From Halopelagius longus (lineage in GTDB: Archaea > Halobacteriota > Halobacteria > Halobacteriales > Haloferacaceae): a stretch of DNA of 64,000 bases. A program made the translations under genes and the position numbers. The notes beneath the pieces were generated by a model that saw only the letters and a list, made by a program, of their open reading frames with translations, did not search any database and had not been told where the DNA came from. The stretch lies in the NCBI RefSeq assembly GCF_900100875.1, contig NZ_FNKQ01000002.1, positions 558,001 to 622,000 of the forward strand, in the 5' to 3' direction. Shown piece after piece: positions 14,572 to 32,495 of this stretch; the first letter of the stretch is position 1; each line of letters starts with the position of its first letter.

Positions 14572-15405
14572 ATGATACCACCGGTGGCGAACAACTTTGT
14601 GGCTGGGGAGGACGCGGAGTCGGCGCTCTCGTACGTCTCGGACGTCAACGAGCGCGGAATCCGGGGGATAGTGAACCTTCTCGGCGAACACTACGACTCG
14701 CGGGCGGACGCCGACGCCGACGCCCGGGAGTACCTCGAACTCGTCGAGCGAATCGGCGACAGCGACTTGGACTGCACCGTCTCGGTGAAACCGTCGCAGA
14801 TAGGGCTCGGGGCCGGCGAGACGGCGTTCGAGGAGAACCTCGAACGAATCGTCGAACGCGCGACCGAACGGGACGTGTTCGTGTGGGTCGACATGGAGGA
14901 CCACGAGACGACCGACGCGACCCTCGACGCGTTCGAGGCGAACGCCCGTGCGTCCGACGGTAACGTCGGCGTCTGCGTGCAGGCGAACCTCAAGCGGACG
15001 GGCGAGGACTTAGCGCGACTCGCGGACGTGCCGGGGAAGGTCCGACTCGTCAAGGGGGCGTACGACGAACCGAAGTCCCTCGCGTACAAGGACAAGTCCG
15101 TCGTAGACGAGAAGTACCGCGAGTATCTGGAGTTCATGTTCCGCGAGTTCGACGACGGCGTCGCCGTCGGGAGCCACGACCTCTCGATGGTGAACTTCGC
15201 GGCGGACCTCTACCGCGAGCACCGGACGCCGTTCGAGGTGCAGATGCTGATGGGGGTCCGCGAGGACGTCCAAGAGCAACTCGTCGGGCGGATGCCGGTG
15301 TACCAGTACATCCCCTACGGGGACAAGTGGATGTCGTACTTCTACCGTCGCGTGCGCGAACGGAAGGAGAACGCCCTGTTCGCGCTTCGGGCGGTGCTGA
15401 GCTGA
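14572..15405 (+). CDS. Proline dehydrogenase
   Basis: A 277-residue single-domain flavoenzyme, slightly short for the family (about 300). Barrel strands with conserved residues are visible: CTVSVKPSQIGLG near residue 68, FVWVDMEDHETTDATL near 103, VGVCVQANLKRTGEDL near 130, VRLVKGAYDEP near 157, and the closing YQYIPYGDKWMSYFYRRVRERKEN, in which the two arginines of YRRVRE bind the proline carboxylate. It oxidises proline to pyrroline-5-carboxylate with FAD. The aldehyde dehydrogenase for the next step is 0.85 kb downstream, across a divergent regulator gene. Confidence 0.92.
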   Translation: MIPPVANNFVAGEDAESALSYVSDVNERGIRGIVNLLGEHYDSRADADADAREYLELVERIGDSDLDCTVSVKPSQIGLGAGETAFEENLERIVERATERDVFVWVDMEDHETTDATLDAFEANARASDGNVGVCVQANLKRTGEDLARLADVPGKVRLVKGAYDEPKSLAYKDKSVVDEKYREYLEFMFREFDDGVAVGSHDLSMVNFAADLYREHRTPFEVQMLMGVREDVQEQLVGRMPVYQYIPYGDKWMSYFYRRVRERKENALFALRAVLS

Positions 15406-15406
15406 C

Positions 15407-16141
15407 TCAGTTCGACTCGGGGTCGAGCAGTTTCGCCTCGGCCTTCCGGAGGTGTTCCAGAAGCGTCGTCTTCGAGATGTCCAACTCGTCGGCCAAATCG
15501 CGGGTGGAGATGCCGCGCGGCCACTGGTAGTACCCCTTCTCGCGGGCGAGTTCGAACACGTCGCGTTGCGTCGGCGTCAGCGTCCCGAGTCGCCGTTCGC
15601 GCTCGGGTTCCACCGTGTCGGAGGAGGCGATGCGGGCGACGGATATCTCCGCGCCGCTCTCCTCGCACACCGCGTCGAGTTCTTCCTCTATCTCGCCGCG
15701 TTCGCCGGCGAAGCACACCTTCCAGTACTCGCGGCCGTCCTCGATGCGCGAGGGCGCACTGTGGACGAACCCGTGCCGGAGCAAGACCGGACAGATCATG
15801 TCGCCGGGGTCGTACTCCAAGAAGAACTCCCGCGCGACCCGTCCGGGCGCGACGCGGGCGGCGCTACGGCCGAACCGTTCCTGTAGCTCTCGGACCTCCC
15901 CGGCGCGGTCCGACTCCTCGATTGCGTCTAACAACCGCTCTACCTCCTCGGCCGACTCTCCGTAGGCCGTGAACAGACCGTTCACCGTCTCGCCCTCCCC
16001 GAGCGTCTCCGGCGCGGTGTAGATCGCGTGCGCGAGAATCCCCCCCGGGAGGCGGTCCGTCGCCTCGATAGCCCAGCAGTTCGGATGCCACAGGTCCAGC
16101 GTCAGTCTGGTTCCTGTTTCGGTAGCCGTTCGGGCACTCAT
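15407..16141 (-). CDS. Bacterio-opsin-activator-type HTH regulator
   Basis: A 244-residue transcription factor. The C-terminal 50 residues form an HTH_10 domain: LTPTQRDVFELAREKGYYQ, then GISTRDLADELDISKTTLLEHLRKAEAKLL. The N-terminal 190 residues are a ligand- or partner-sensing region beginning TLDLWHPNCWAIEATDRLPGG, with no known ligand motif that I can see. ATG 16141 is preferred over 16165, since a minus-strand TATA (CATATAC, 16167-16173) sits about 28 bases before it. It stands between the proline dehydrogenase gene and the divergent aldehyde dehydrogenase gene, so control of proline breakdown is the likely role (inference). Confidence 0.85.
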   Translation of the reverse strand: MSARTATETGTRLTLDLWHPNCWAIEATDRLPGGILAHAIYTAPETLGEGETVNGLFTAYGESAEEVERLLDAIEESDRAGEVRELQERFGRSAARVAPGRVAREFFLEYDPGDMICPVLLRHGFVHSAPSRIEDGREYWKVCFAGERGEIEEELDAVCEESGAEISVARIASSDTVEPERERRLGTLTPTQRDVFELAREKGYYQWPRGISTRDLADELDISKTTLLEHLRKAEAKLLDPESN

Positions 16142-16178
16142 CGCCCGACCGTAGACGACTGTCACGTATATGGTTGAC

Positions 16179-16234
16179 TATCCTCACGATATCGGTTCGG
16201 GGTACCGTCCATGGACGGGATGTGGGTTATTAAG
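16179..16234 (+). promoter_or_regulatory. Promoter and palindromic operator of the P5C dehydrogenase gene
   Basis: TATCCTCACG at 16179-16188 is followed by the perfect palindrome CCGTCCATGGACGG at 16205-16218 and a TATA element TTATTAAG at 16227-16234, which is 27 bases before the ATG at 16258, as expected for a leaderless transcript. The palindrome differs by only two symmetric bases from the one ahead of the importer operon at 14431-14444. Confidence 0.65.
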
Positions 16235-16257
16235 ACGCGTTCGAGAACATTGCTACC

Positions 16258-17787
16258 ATGGCGAACAGCGACCAAGTGTACAACCACTACATCGACGGTG
16301 AGTGGACGAACGGGTCGGGAGACGAGACGTTCGTGAGCGAGAACCCCGCGACGGGCGAGACGCTCGGCGAGTTCCGCCGGGGGACGGCAGACGACGTGGA
16401 CGAGGCTCTCGCGGCCGCCGAGGACGCCTTCGAGGAGTGGCAGGACCTCTCGCACATCGACCGCGCGGAGTACCTCTGGGACATCTACCACGAACTGAAG
16501 GAGCGACACGAAGAACTCGGCGAAATCGTCACGAAGGAGTGCGGCAAGGAGATAAGCGAGGGCAAAGCCGACGTGACCGAGGCGTGGCACATGGTCGAGT
16601 GGGCCGCGGGCGACGCCCGCCACCCGAAGGGCGACGTCATCCCCTCGGAGATTCCGTCGAAGGACGCCTACATGCGCCGCAAGCCCCGCGGCGTCGTGGG
16701 CTGTATCACCCCGTGGAACTTCCCCGTCGCCATCCCCTTCTGGCACATGGCCGTCGCCCTCGTCGAGGGGAACGTCGTCGTCTGGAAGCCCGCCGAGCAG
16801 ACGCCGTGGTGCGCGCAGATCATCGCGGAGATGTTCGAGGACTCGGGCATCCCCGAGGGCGTGTTCAACATGGTGCAGGGCTTCGGCGACGCCGGGTCCG
16901 CCATCGTCGACGACTCCCGCGTGGACACGGTCCTTTTCACCGGGTCGGCGGAAGTCGGCCACGAGATCGCCTCGAAGGTCGGCGGCGAACCCGGCAAACT
17001 CGCCGCCTGCGAGATGGGCGGGAAGAACAACGTCGTCGTCACCGAGAAGGCGGACTTGGACGTCGCGGTTCACTCCGCGGTGATGTCGTCGTTCAAGACC
17101 ACCGGCCAGCGCTGCGTCTCCTCGGAACGCCTCGTCGTCCACGAGGAGGTGTACGACGAGTTCAAGGAGCGATTCGTCGAGATGGCGCGGAACGTCTCGG
17201 TCGGCGACCCCCTCGACTCGGACACGTTCATGGGTCCCCTCATCGAGGAGGGTCACAAGGAGAAGGTCACGAAGTACAACGAACTCGCCGAACGCGAGGG
17301 CGTTAACGTCCTCGTCGACCGGACGGACCTCGACGACGACGAGATTCCCGACGGCCACGAGGACGGCCACTGGATCGGACCGTTCGTCTACGAGGCCGAC
17401 CCCCACGAGGACCTGCGCTGTACCCACGAAGAGGTGTTCGGCCCGCACGTCGCCCTGCTGAAGTACTCCGGCGACATCGAGGAGGCCGTCGAGATCCACA
17501 ACGACACCGACTACGGACTCGCCGGCGCGATAATCTCCGAGGACTACCGGCAGATAAACTACTTCCGCGACCACGCGGAGGTCGGACTCGCCTACGGGAA
17601 CCTCCCGTGCATCGGCGCGGAGGTCCACCTGCCCTTCGGCGGCGTCAAGAAGTCCGGCAACGGCTACCCGTCGGCCCGCGAGGTCATCGAAGCCGTCACC
17701 GAACGGACGGCGTGGACGCTCAACAACTCGAAGGACATCCAGATGGCGCAGGGCCTCTCGGCGGACATCAAGACGCAGGACGACTGA
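16258..17787 (+). CDS. pruA: L-glutamate gamma-semialdehyde (P5C) dehydrogenase, aldehyde dehydrogenase family
   Basis: A 509-residue NAD(P)-dependent aldehyde dehydrogenase. Key parts are the oxyanion asparagine in ITPWNFPVAIPFWHM, the cofactor loop VVWKPAEQTPWCA, the nucleotide segment VLFTGSAEVGHEIA, the general-base glutamate in CEMGGKNNVVV and the catalytic cysteine in TTGQRCVSSERLVVH, with EVFGPHVALLKY near residue 390. Substrate choice rests on the neighbouring proline dehydrogenase and regulator; on its own the sequence also fits other semialdehyde or KGSA-type dehydrogenases. A T6 run follows the stop by 17 bases. Confidence 0.88.
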   Translation: MANSDQVYNHYIDGEWTNGSGDETFVSENPATGETLGEFRRGTADDVDEALAAAEDAFEEWQDLSHIDRAEYLWDIYHELKERHEELGEIVTKECGKEISEGKADVTEAWHMVEWAAGDARHPKGDVIPSEIPSKDAYMRRKPRGVVGCITPWNFPVAIPFWHMAVALVEGNVVVWKPAEQTPWCAQIIAEMFEDSGIPEGVFNMVQGFGDAGSAIVDDSRVDTVLFTGSAEVGHEIASKVGGEPGKLAACEMGGKNNVVVTEKADLDVAVHSAVMSSFKTTGQRCVSSERLVVHEEVYDEFKERFVEMARNVSVGDPLDSDTFMGPLIEEGHKEKVTKYNELAEREGVNVLVDRTDLDDDEIPDGHEDGHWIGPFVYEADPHEDLRCTHEEVFGPHVALLKYSGDIEEAVEIHNDTDYGLAGAIISEDYRQINYFRDHAEVGLAYGNLPCIGAEVHLPFGGVKKSGNGYPSAREVIEAVTERTAWTLNNSKDIQMAQGLSADIKTQDD

Positions 17788-17803
17788 ACCTCGGAAGAAC
17801 CGC

Positions 17804-17809
17804 TTTTTT
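17804..17809 (+). terminator. Poly-T terminator after the P5C dehydrogenase gene
   Basis: Six T residues follow a GC-rich stretch 17 bases after the stop codon, the usual archaeal intrinsic stop signal. It separates the gene from the convergent RNA candidate downstream. Confidence 0.6.
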
Positions 17810-17844
17810 CGCGTCGTCGTCGCTCTCGCTCGAAGCGAACTGAA

Positions 17845-18069
17845 AGTGTGAAAGGTCGCGCGCCACCGGACGAGGCGGCGCGCGTTTCGGCAGTAGGCTG
17901 GCAGCCCTGCCGGGCGAGAGGGTGAAGGGAGGTGGAAACCGCCTCCGCCGGGTTCGGAGGCGGCGAGCGACGCCGTGGCGTCGTGTGTGCCGTAGTGGAC
18001 CCCGTGCACTACGGCGTGGTGCGGCGGGTCGTGCCGACTCTCGACGAGAAAAGCGTCGGGCGTCGGCAA
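17845..18069 (-). ncRNA. Candidate structured non-coding RNA (unclassified)
   Basis: This 376-base space (17788-18163) has no credible protein gene but a run of strong hairpins. In plus coordinates the pairings are 18033-18038 with 18062-18067 enclosing 18042-18046 with 18054-18058; 17989-17997 with 18007-18015 (9 bp); 17968-17974 with 17977-17983 (7 bp); 17940-17947 with 17955-17962 (8 bp); 17888-17893 with 17907-17912 (6 bp); and 17857-17864 with 17877-17884 (8 bp), all perfect. A minus-strand TATA (TTTATTG, 18092-18098) puts a transcription start near 18069, exactly at the first stem, and T-rich sequence follows the last stem near 17850. Loops read on the minus strand include a CU-rich segment with CCACCTCCC. 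It lacks the conserved motifs of RNase P or SRP RNA. Strand and ends are inferred. Confidence 0.55.
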
Positions 18070-18091
18070 TTCACTCTAGACGACGGGTATC

Positions 18092-18098
18092 AATAAAC
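18092..18098 (-). promoter_or_regulatory. TATA box of the structured RNA candidate
   Basis: On the minus strand the sequence reads GGTTTATTGATA, a good haloarchaeal TATA element, centred 26 bases before 18069 where the first hairpin stem begins. No protein gene starts downstream on this strand before the convergent dehydrogenase gene, so the promoter must serve a non-coding transcript or be spurious. Confidence 0.5.
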
Positions 18099-18163
18099 CC
18101 TCCGGGTGTTTCACGGCAATATCCGGCTATAACGTGTCACTAAGCCCGCCAAAATCGACCGGT

Positions 18164-18595
18164 TCACGCCGGGTGTTCGGTCTCTCGACGCAGTGCGGCT
18201 TCGAGGTTTTCGAGTTCCTCGTCGAGATTACGCTTGAAGAACCGCTCTACGCCCGGAACGCGGCCGTCGACGACGAACTCGTTGAGGAGTCTCGTCCCGC
18301 CGTCTATCTCCTCGACGGTGTGTTCGCCCGTGACGCGCATCACCTTCGACCGGCCGACGAACTTGACGTGTCGCGGCGGTTCGAACTCCACGTCCTCCGT
18401 CTGCACCGTCGCCGTGGAGTTCAAGAACGGAATCGGGAGGCTCACCTCCCACGTCGCGCGGTTCGTCCCTTCCTCCAGTTCGTAACTCTCGACGACGCTG
18501 ATGGCGTTGGCCCGCTTTCCCGGATCGGAGATGAAATCCCAAATTCGCTCCGGCGGTGCATCGAACTCGAACGCCCGGCGAACGCGGACCGTCAT
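18164..18595 (-). CDS. SRPBCC (START-like) superfamily protein
   Basis: A 143-residue helix-grip protein. It opens with VRVRRAFEFDAPPERIWDFISDPGKRANAI, the standard first strand and helix pair of polyketide-cyclase/CoxG-like members, then strands ATWEVSLPIPFLNS and VKFVGRSKVMRVTGEHTVEEIDGGTRLLNEF and ends in a long helix (FFKRNLDEELENLEAAL). Such proteins form a hydrophobic pocket; the ligand here is unknown. It lies 39 bases downstream of a small HTH-like gene on the same strand. Confidence 0.8.
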   Translation of the reverse strand: MTVRVRRAFEFDAPPERIWDFISDPGKRANAISVVESYELEEGTNRATWEVSLPIPFLNSTATVQTEDVEFEPPRHVKFVGRSKVMRVTGEHTVEEIDGGTRLLNEFVVDGRVPGVERFFKRNLDEELENLEAALRRETEHPA

Positions 18596-18634: not shown

Positions 18635-18859
18635 CTAACTCAGCGTGACGCGCCACGTGGTCGAACGGGCCCGGCCCCACTTCTCGATATCCACGTCGTC
18701 GGACTTCTCCGCGAGTCGAGGGAGGCGAGAACCGACCTGTTTCGACGAGAGGCCGATCGCTTCGGCGATGTTCTTCGCCCGGAAGTATCGCTCACCGCGG
18801 GAGACGCTCTCCCGCAGGTAGGCGACAATCCGCTGTTCTTCCTCGGTGTACTCGGACAT
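18635..18859 (-). CDS. Small winged-helix-like haloarchaeal protein (DUF7123-like)
   Basis: A 74-residue basic protein: YTEEEQRIVAYLRESVSRG, then YFRAKNIAEAIGLSSKQVGSRLPRL, then KWGRARSTTWRV. The middle looks like a helix-turn-helix and the end like a wing, so DNA binding is likely. I associate this very conserved sequence with the haloarchaeal family DUF7123. ATG 18859 has AGGAGTG seven bases upstream and is preferred over the GTG at 18868. Confidence 0.8.
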   Translation of the reverse strand: MSEYTEEEQRIVAYLRESVSRGERYFRAKNIAEAIGLSSKQVGSRLPRLAEKSDDVDIEKWGRARSTTWRVTLS

Positions 18860-18996
18860 CTTCACCACTCCTAGGTGATTTCGCGTCTTAACGGTTTCTC
18901 GTTCGGTACTCGTTTCGTCGCGACCACGGGCCGGACGGCCCGAGTTCCGCCGGCGCGCGGTCGGGCGCGCGGGCGGTCACGGACGCGAGCGTCGTC

Positions 18997-29810: not shown

Positions 29811-32495
29811 CTACTGTATCCCAGTCGCGTTCGTCGTCGTCGTCTGAGTTGCGGTCGCCGTCTCAGTCGGCGTCGCAGTCTCGGTCCGAGTCTCCGTCTC
29901 TGTCGCGGTTTCCGTTTCAGTCGGCGTCTCCGTCGGCGTCTCGGTCTCCGTTTCGGTGGTCGTTTCCGTCTCCGTCGTCGTTTCCGTCTCAGTCGGCGTC
30001 TCCGTCGTCGTTTCCGTCTCAGTCGGCGTCTCCGTCGTCGTTTCCGTCTCAGTCGGCGTCTCCGTCGGCGTCTCGGTCTCCGTCGCAGTCTCTGTTGCCG
30101 TTTCCGTCTCGGTGGGTGTCTCCGTCTCGTTCGGCGTCGTCGTTTCGTTCGGCGTCGCAGTCGGAGTTGCCGTCTCGTTCGGCGTCGCCGTTTCGTTCGG
30201 GGTCGTAGTTTCGGTCGGCGTCTCCGTCGCCTCGATACTGAACGCGAAGACCGCCTCGTCGTTCACGTCGACGGGCGTCCCGTCTTCGGTCTCCGCCGTC
30301 AGGGCGTAGTCGCCCGGCGCGAGTCCCTCGACGCTCGCGTTCCCGTCTGCGGGGACGGTGACGGATTCGACGACGCCAGTCTCGTTCGTGACGTTCGCCG
30401 TGACCGGCGCGTCGTTCGGGTTGAACACGGTCACGTTGTCGTCGCCGACGGTCGCTTCGAGGCTTTCGACGGGCGGTGCTTCGACCGTCAGCGTCGCCGA
30501 GGCGTTCTCGTTCACGTCGACGGGCGTCCCGTCCTCGGTTTCGGCGGTGACGGTGTAGTCACCTGCCGAGAGTTCGTCCGTCGTGGCGTTCCCCTCGGCG
30601 GGGACGGTGACGGACTCGACGACGCCCGTCTCGTTCGTGACGTTCGCCGTGACCGGCACGGCGTTCGGGTTCGTCACCTCGATGGACCGGTTCTCGACCG
30701 TCGCCGTGGTCGAGAGCGGTTCGATATCGAACGCGTACTCGTCTCGGTCGTTCACGCCGACGGATATCCCGTCTTCAGTTTCCGCGGTGAGGGTGTAGTT
30801 GCCCGGCGGAAGTTCGGCCGTCGTGGCGTTCTCGCCCGCGGGCACCGTCAGCGATTCGACCACGTCGCCCGTCTCGTTCGTGACGTTCGCCGTGACGGCC
30901 ACGACGTTCGGGTTCGCCACCTCGACGGACCGGTTCTGCACGCTGGCCGAAGTCGAGAGCGGTTCGAGCGTGAATCCGTATTCGGCTTGGCCGTTCACGT
31001 CCACGGACGTGCCGTCCTCGGTTTCCGCGGTGAGGGTGTAGTTACCCGGCGGGAGATTTTCGATCGTCTCGTTCTCGCCGGCCGCAACCATATCTGCGGT
31101 CACCTCGCCGGTGTCGTTCGAGACGGTCACCGTCACCGGAACGTCGTTGGGGTTCTCGACCGTGACGTTGCTCTGACCCGTGGTCGCGTTCACACTCTGC
31201 AGTTCGGGCTCTTCCGGTTCTTCCGGCGCGGGTTCTGCCGGAGTTGCCCCGTCGTCCTCGTCGGGCGTCTCCGTGTCAGTCTCGGTTCCCGCGTCGGTGT
31301 CCGCTCCCTCCCGCTCCGAGAGGTTCTCGTCTACGCTCTCGCGACCGTTCTCGGCTATCTCCTCGAAGTCGGTCGTTCCGCTCTCGGCCGCTTGCTCCGC
31401 GGTCGTCGCGGCGGACTGCGTGACGACGACCTGTATCTGGTAGATGTTCACCACCTGCGTCTGCATTATCTGGACGACCGCACCCTCGCTCACGCCCGCG
31501 GCGGCCGCCTGAATCTGAGTCGCCGAGGCCTGCTGCGACTGCGAGAGCGACCCGCCGGCGGCCGACTCCGCGATTATCTGCGTCTGCACGATACTGACGT
31601 TCTGCACCTGACTGACGGTCCCGCTCGCCGCCCCGAGTGCGGCCGACTGGACCTGTTCGACCGTCGCCCGTTGGCTCTGGTTCACCGCGCCCGAGGCGGC
31701 GCCAAGCGCGACGACCTGAACCTGCTTGATATCGACCGACTGCGTCTGCGTCAGGACGCCCTCGGCGCCGCCTCTGGCACCCGCTTCGACCGCCTCTAAC
31801 TCCGCGTCGTCGCTACTCTCCAGCGCACCGTAGGCGGCGCCCTGCGCGGCCTCCTGTATCGTCGCGACGCTCACCGTCTCGTTCGTCCGTTCCGCGCAGG
31901 CACCCGCGGCCGCGCCCGCCGCCGCCACCTGCATCTGCTCGACGGTCACCGACTGGCGCTGGGCGACCGCCCCGTGCGACGCGCCGTACGCGGCCGCCTG
32001 AATCTGCCGCACGCTCGCGTTCTGCGCCTGCGACAGCGCACCGGCCGTACTGCCGCCGACGGCCGCCTGTATCTGCTCGGCACTCGCGTTCTGGGTCTGA
32101 ATCAGCGTCCCGTGGGCCGCACCGGCGGCGACGCGCTGAATCTGCGTGACGTTCGCCTCTTGGGTCTGCGCCACCCCCTCGAGCGTCCCGTTCACGGCGG
32201 CCTGCCGTTGGGACTGGTTCACCGTCGCGCCCTGCATCTGCGCTAGCCGAACGCCTCGCTGGACGCCCTGCTCGACCGCCTGCCGTTCCTCGTCGGTCAG
32301 TTGCGCGTCGTCGTCGCTCACTTGGAACGCCGCGGCCGCCGAACCCCGGTCAGGCGCGGACGCCGCGCCCGCGACGCCGACCCCCGCGACGAGTGCGCTC
32401 CCGACCACGGTCCAAGCGACAACTGCGGCGGCGACCCGACGGAACCGCCCGCCTGTCGCCGTACTGTCCCTGCCTTTCGCTCCCTTCTTTGACAT
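29811..32495 (-). CDS. Large secreted repeat protein: 23-residue Gln/Ala repeats, four beta-sandwich repeats, Thr-rich stalk
   Basis: 894 residues in four parts. Residues 1-46 look like a signal peptide (RVAAAVVAWTVVGSALVAGVGVAGA). From about 65 to 360 run some twelve repeats of 23 residues with the pattern GAAxG, then QxQNAS, then QIQAAA. An acidic linker follows. Four near-identical units of about 80 residues come next (about 425-750), each with VENPNDVPVTV, NETG and LPPGNYTLTAETEDG-like parts, as in bacterial Ig-like surface domains. The last 140 residues are Thr/Glu/Pro repeats ending NATGIQ, with no PGF sorting signal and no final membrane helix. Many N-x-S/T sites suggest glycosylation. 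A cell-surface or matrix adhesin is the likely role; I do not recognise the N-terminal repeat family. Confidence 0.75.
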   Translation of the reverse strand: MSKKGAKGRDSTATGGRFRRVAAAVVAWTVVGSALVAGVGVAGAASAPDRGSAAAAFQVSDDDAQLTDEERQAVEQGVQRGVRLAQMQGATVNQSQRQAAVNGTLEGVAQTQEANVTQIQRVAAGAAHGTLIQTQNASAEQIQAAVGGSTAGALSQAQNASVRQIQAAAYGASHGAVAQRQSVTVEQMQVAAAGAAAGACAERTNETVSVATIQEAAQGAAYGALESSDDAELEAVEAGARGGAEGVLTQTQSVDIKQVQVVALGAASGAVNQSQRATVEQVQSAALGAASGTVSQVQNVSIVQTQIIAESAAGGSLSQSQQASATQIQAAAAGVSEGAVVQIMQTQVVNIYQIQVVVTQSAATTAEQAAESGTTDFEEIAENGRESVDENLSEREGADTDAGTETDTETPDEDDGATPAEPAPEEPEEPELQSVNATTGQSNVTVENPNDVPVTVTVSNDTGEVTADMVAAGENETIENLPPGNYTLTAETEDGTSVDVNGQAEYGFTLEPLSTSASVQNRSVEVANPNVVAVTANVTNETGDVVESLTVPAGENATTAELPPGNYTLTAETEDGISVGVNDRDEYAFDIEPLSTTATVENRSIEVTNPNAVPVTANVTNETGVVESVTVPAEGNATTDELSAGDYTVTAETEDGTPVDVNENASATLTVEAPPVESLEATVGDDNVTVFNPNDAPVTANVTNETGVVESVTVPADGNASVEGLAPGDYALTAETEDGTPVDVNDEAVFAFSIEATETPTETTTPNETATPNETATPTATPNETTTPNETETPTETETATETATETETPTETPTETETTTETPTETETTTETPTETETTTETETTTETETETPTETPTETETATETETRTETATPTETATATQTTTTNATGIQ
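29971..30060. repeat. Three perfect 30-bp tandem repeats inside the surface-protein stalk
   Basis: The 30-bp unit at 29971-30000 is repeated exactly at 30001-30030 and 30031-30060. It encodes ten residues of the Thr/Glu/Pro stalk, so gain or loss of a unit keeps the frame. Perfect identity at the DNA level, including silent positions, points to recent expansion by slippage or recombination. Confidence 0.9.

Follow-up and report, generated by a model that had tools for sequence, protein, structure and literature searches.

Positions 17845 to 18098 of the window, the stretch of 64,000 nucleotides of Halopelagius longus DNA analyzed here, raise the question of what a chain of closely packed hairpins encodes. 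The initial annotation had read them as a haloarchaeal structured RNA of a new class, transcribed from the minus strand. This proposal was supported, as the position, the promoter, and the base pairing were conserved among relatives and no Rfam family matched; it is the comparison with relatives that strengthened the earlier observation. On the minus strand, an independent gene for a non-coding RNA very probably runs from 18068 to about 17845, and we regard it as close to certain that a genuine, conserved RNA gene is located here. Judged from sequence comparison, on which the promoter, the first hairpin (hp1) with its pairing, the second hairpin (hp2), a hairpin with a CCGG loop, the location, the near-universality, and the single copy all rest, the RNA would be small and structured, with its own promoter, near-universal across haloarchaea, usually present as a single copy, and located mostly in the same genomic setting.

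The six stems described earlier were all present at the locus on the minus strand, and the minus-strand fold had an energy of −125.8 kcal/mol, compared to −103.8 ± 4.6 kcal/mol in dinucleotide shuffles (z −4.8, 0/200). As the complement folds well too (z −3.45 for the plus strand), folding alone left the strand undecided, and it was the placement of the promoter that assigned the RNA to the minus strand. In the window, a BRE (CCGGAGGG, 18105–18098) is followed on the minus strand by the TATA box TTTATT (18097–18092), the two together spanning 18092–18105, and by a −10 ‘TA’ element at 18077–18078. When 65 representatives were aligned on hp1, a position-by-position profile showed the box TTT[A/T]T in 65/65, at a constant spacing ahead of hp1, and the set also had in common a BRE-like motif, C[CG]G.GG, and a −10 element rich in TA, with A at 86% at the offset. 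TTTATT lies 30 bases ahead of the hp1 GCCG in the window, and the spacing was 29–30 bases in nearly all relatives. From this spacing, the predicted start is the first base pair of hp1 (18067–18069), which upholds the earlier placement of a TATA element and of a start (18069) at the base of the first stem.

The 3ʹ end could be placed less firmly than the start; in the window it would lie near 17842–17854 on the minus strand, where CUUUCACACUUUC is the probable terminator. T-rich sequence had been noted after the last stem, and such sequence was indeed present (CTTTCACACTTTC, 17854–17842), but it is weak as a signal, with no T run longer than three. CCTTTCG and CTTTC were enriched in the tails of relatives, and the CCTTTCG enrichment agrees with the T-stretch followed by C that forms the intergenic terminator of H. 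volcanii (PMC7237163). The predicted RNA is about 220 nt in length and would extend up to this weak T/C terminator, ahead of the convergent aldehyde dehydrogenase gene.

The 5ʹ hairpin hp1 (18032–18068, on the minus strand like all of the following elements) is the class-wide signature, as indicated by covariance-model matches, covariation, and column counts. It is composed of an outer stem of 7 bp (UGCCGAC/GUCGGCA), an inner stem of 5 bp (CGACG/CGUCG), and the loop CUUUUCU (18053–18047), corresponding to TGCCG..CGACG-CTTTTCT-CGTCG..CGGCA in DNA (18068–18032). The invariant CTTTTC of this loop resembles the haloarchaeal T-stretch-C terminator signal and is oddly placed for one, about 20 bases past the expected start. 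Downstream lies hp2 (17989–18015), which has a stem of 9 bp (GCCGUAGUG/CACUACGGC), a loop with GGGGUCC, and covariation in Haloferacaceae, followed by hp3 (17968–17983), a small hairpin of 6 bp (CGACGC/GCGUCG), and by hp4 (17939–17963), with 9–10 bp (CCGCCUCCG/CGGAGGCGG) and the loop AACCCGG, one of the recurring (C)CCGG-loop hairpins. Beyond an anti-Shine-Dalgarno (anti-SD)-like stretch (CCACCUCCC, 17928–17936), which is present in the window and is not conserved as a motif, hp5 (17888–17912) has an outer stem of 6 bp (CGGCAG/CUGCCG) and an inner stem, and hp6 (17857–17884) has 11 bp including one GU (CGCGCGCCGCC/GGUGGCGCGCG) and a loop, UCGUCC, that adjoins GG, giving a second UCCGG. The hairpins hp3, hp5, and hp6 come from the fold, with support from one same-genus relative (L002), in which hp3 is identical, hp5 is kept with a longer loop, and the G-U pair of hp6 is G-C. 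In the window, kissing between the loops of hp2 (GGGGUC) and hp4 (ACCCGG) is possible over 4 bp; as both loops are near-invariant, covariation provides no test of it.

Compensatory changes in relatives, which the initial annotation had named as the support to look for, were found in both hp1 and hp2. In hp1, two-sided compensatory changes occurred at 9 of the 12 pairs, which was equaled in 0/500 shuffles (alignment A3), and 92% of the cells were paired, compared to 64% or less after the partner columns were slid. Alignment A3, which includes weak matches outside the pattern constraint, was aligned to the structure of the model and is biased towards that structure, and MAFFT alone gave the same picture. 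The apex of hp1, an 11-base tip fixed save one base, reads CGCUUUUC[U/A]CG (DNA CGCTTTTC[T/A]CG) and was invariant save the U/A site in 78/78 aligned copies; part of this set had some stem bases fixed by the pattern, a bias from which the weak matches and the copies of genus g36 are free. In the g36 copies, which lie beside the same genes, the otherwise invariant GC pair 17–31 has turned into AU. The length of hp1 varies among copies by non-multiples of three.

In Haloferacaceae, two-sided changes were found at 8/8 pairs of hp2 around an invariant GGGGUC loop; the invariance of the loop is by construction, as the 24 sequences were picked for GGGGTC, whereas the covariation of the stem is not. 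Hairpins with (C)CCGG loops occurred in 33/65 tails, compared to 3.9 ± 2.1 in shuffles, on stems unrelated in sequence (GCUCGU/ACGAGC, CGCCCCU/AGGGGCG, and AAGGCUG/CAGCCUU). The control palindromes CGCG, GCGC, CGGC, and GCCG showed no loop excess, and GGCC showed a small one. The tails were C-rich (0.41 C, 0.26 G, 0.18 T, and 0.14 A). A switch between mutually exclusive stems had also been proposed, with GGAGG (17928–17932) and CGCCTCCG (17940–17947) pairing with the same bases. Both elements stand at these positions, but the GGAGG/CGCCTCC switch was not preserved among relatives, in which hp4 keeps its loop while its stem is wholly replaced, and beyond the genus the alternative partner is missing.

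How widely is the RNA distributed? In a DNA search of 40 relatives, 13 genomes had matches, mostly to the 5ʹ part, and most of these loci were near an SRPBCC gene. The pattern derived from those matches recovered Halobacterium, Haloquadratum, Halorubrum, Haladaptatus, Halococcus, Halobellus, Halogranum, Halorhabdus, and others. As the pattern fixes the hp1 core, a covariance model of hp1 was built and searched instead. With the first model, hp1 was found in 278/392 Halobacteriales genomes; with the second, trained on 78 copies, it was found in 343/392, including 317 of the 345 good-quality genomes and 85 of the 95 genera, mostly as one copy per genome. No match to the hp1 model was obtained in about 240 other genomes sampled from the same phylum. 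Bacterial matches to the pattern were taken as chance, since they had no SRPBCC, DUF7123, or convergent aldehyde dehydrogenase gene nearby. When 11 no-hit genomes were checked, two of them (genus g36) proved to have a copy after all, a divergent one next to the same DUF7123 gene, and the figure of 343 is thus a lower bound, as the search missed these copies. The other no-hit genomes (f2, f9, f10-g32, f17-g39, and more) may be truly without the RNA or may carry one that has diverged. In four lineages (L043, L096, L108, and L112), the RNA is seemingly cut to hp1 plus a C-rich tail, with neither hp2 nor a clear CCGG hairpin, and this may be the minimal functional form.

The genomic setting agreed with the synteny that had been suggested for the SRPBCC and aldehyde dehydrogenase genes. 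In the window, Pfam identified an SRPBCC (Polyketide_cyc2) gene (18164–18595) and a DUF7123 winged-helix-like gene (18635–18868) upstream on the same minus strand; genes of these two kinds had this position and orientation in 59/71 and 58/71 loci, respectively. Downstream, an aldehyde dehydrogenase gene (16258–17787, plus strand, Pfam) is convergent, as in 34/79 loci. The RNA lies 56 to 1948 bases from the SRPBCC gene, a spacing too variable for it to be a fixed 3ʹ UTR of that gene. The DUF7123 protein, which adjoins SRPBCC and the RNA in those 58 loci, is small, and each genome encodes several paralogues of it. Beyond the aldehyde dehydrogenase gene, as seen from the RNA, Pfam identified genes for a proline dehydrogenase and an HTH_10 regulator in the window. 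We take the stretch 14572–17787, with proline dehydrogenase, the opposite-strand HTH_10 regulator, and aldehyde dehydrogenase, to be a likely proline-degradation cluster, the end of which abuts the RNA gene.

No known gene was found at the minus-strand RNA locus itself. A protein-coding origin was rejected, since open reading frames were not in excess in the RNA (42/89) compared to the flanking controls (50/85 and 52/83). A minus-strand frame of 635 aa (16162–18069), antisense to aldehyde dehydrogenase and with a TTG start at the base of hp1, is probably spurious, a product of GC-rich codon usage. A cis-regulatory leader or riboswitch was rejected as well, there being no excess of same-strand open reading frames downstream and the recurrent downstream gene being convergent (34/79). 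Archaeal intergenic sRNAs are recognized by an intergenic promoter of their own and by having no conserved open reading frame; such a promoter was present in 65/65 representatives, and no open reading frame was conserved.

Known RNA families were searched as well, as had been recommended, and none matched. Rfam 15 at gathering thresholds returned only a tRNA from the whole window, outside the RNA locus, and at relaxed thresholds the best match at the locus was Pxr, with 17.6 bits compared to a gathering score of 80. RNase P RNA (RF00373) and archaeal SRP RNA (RF01857) had been set aside earlier, rightly so, as the genome encodes its copies elsewhere (G000:C1:99983 and G000:C2:754280, respectively) and the locus matched neither. 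An H/ACA guide RNA was rejected because columns 43–48 after hp1 hold no fixed ACA. A text search of 5.39 million papers with the hp1 core returned none containing it. Elsewhere in the window, ARAGORN called a tRNA-Pro (ggg) of 93 nt on the minus strand (32322–32414), without support from the Rfam tRNA model at gathering score; the sequence resembles GC-rich coding DNA, and the call is probably a false positive.

What might such an RNA do? The reading that we favor, with a probability of roughly one half, is that of a regulatory RNA that acts in trans and is anchored through a protein bound to hp1. Transcription would begin with the outermost pair of hp1 and give an RNA of about 220 nt. The fixed CUUUUC[U/A] loop would make hp1 a docking site for a protein, and base-pairing with target RNAs, or between two copies of the RNA, would fall to the C-rich linkers and to the exposed loops, CCGG and GGGGUC. 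An Lsm/SmAP-type protein is our guess for the partner of hp1, given the preference of archaeal Lsm proteins for AU-rich RNA, which Halobacterium SmAP1 shows for AU-rich transcripts (PMC10134880), although a loop with four U is short for an Sm-type site. Two points weigh against a regulator: the invariant loop suits protein binding or housekeeping at least as well as target pairing, and the tail is so divergent that targets common to the whole class are not obvious.

The main rival, which we consider rather unlikely, is a housekeeping RNP RNA, a scaffold or ribosome-associated RNA with a status like that of SRP or RNase P RNA, in which the hp1 tip would be the core protein site and the remainder a variable scaffold. 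The near-universal presence, the single copy, the stable locus, the 11-mer invariant save the U/A site, and the variable periphery would all fit, and H. volcanii does possess ncRNAs that associate with the ribosome (PMC6104027), whereas a tail that ranges from almost nothing past hp1 (L108) to several hairpins would be unusual for a scaffold. Slightly less likely is the more specific form of this proposal, a class-wide housekeeping RNP RNA in which the invariant CGCUUUUC[U/A]CG binds a conserved protein and the self-complementary CCGG loops kiss.

It is highly improbable that hp1 acts as DNA, that is, as an inverted-repeat operator that a regulator binds where transcription begins, the transcript being short or unstable and the RNA itself having no role. 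Its place exactly at the expected start site is a common operator position and its apical stem is palindromic, but compensatory changes with arms of varying length, a fixed non-palindromic loop, and more hairpins downstream with covarying stems all point to RNA. We give as little credence to promoter-proximal control of transcription or termination, with the CUUUUC of hp1 serving as a T-stretch terminator or pause site. The intergenic termination signal of H. volcanii is a run of T with a C after it (PMC7237163), and hp1 has TTTTC, yet the T-run is in the loop and not after the stem, the conserved structure extends past it, and there is no consistent same-strand gene downstream, the next gene often being convergent. 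Least probable of all is an anti-SD RNA that masks ribosome-binding sites, a role that takes up the anti-SD core and the possible effect on translation noted in the initial annotation. CCACCTCCC does occur in the window and in L002, and CACCTC was found in 20/65 tails with 9.1 expected; as a functional feature, however, the motif did not hold up, since CCTCC was rarer than in shuffles (23/65 tails, 32.2 expected), CACCTCC was not enriched (5/65 tails, 3.2 expected), and ATCACCTCC was absent from the 65 tails.

About 90% of haloarchaeal genomes carry this predicted structured RNA, with its nearly invariant tip and stable locus. To our knowledge, it would be the best-conserved haloarchaeal ncRNA outside tRNA, rRNA, SRP RNA, and RNase P RNA. 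Archaeal sRNAs are generally reported to be poorly conserved, and few have an assigned function. Genetics and transcriptomes exist for Haloferax and Halobacterium. The covariance model would be of use to annotators, and the RNA could serve biochemists as bait for an RNA-binding protein.

In kind, this is a small archaeal non-coding RNA, a kind already known, and as a family it appears to be new, with H225.2R and hts10 compared by description only. It resembles the intergenic sRNAs of H. volcanii (sRNA132, s479, H225.2R, hts10, and others) in being small and intergenic with its own promoter, and differs from them in its presence in about 90% of haloarchaeal genomes, whereas most of theirs are confined to the species. 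Among 27 tested H. volcanii sRNAs, 22 were confined to H. volcanii and three were conserved in more than ten haloarchaea; H225.2R, the deletion of which is pleiotropic, is conserved in 19 other haloarchaea and hts10 in 18 (PMC3956466). The RNA described here could be one of these conserved sRNAs (e.g., H225.2R or hts10), and its transcript may already be catalogued in H. volcanii with the family unrecognized. The ribosome-associated ncRNAs of H. volcanii, including rancRNA_s194, are likewise haloarchaeal ncRNAs, with a proposed role in translation (PMC6104027), but rancRNA_s194 is 97 nt long and is not conserved outside H. volcanii (PMC3956466). Archaeal SRP RNA and RNase P RNA, although encoded elsewhere in the genome and unmatched by the RNA locus, are like the new RNA in being structured, universal, and single-copy.
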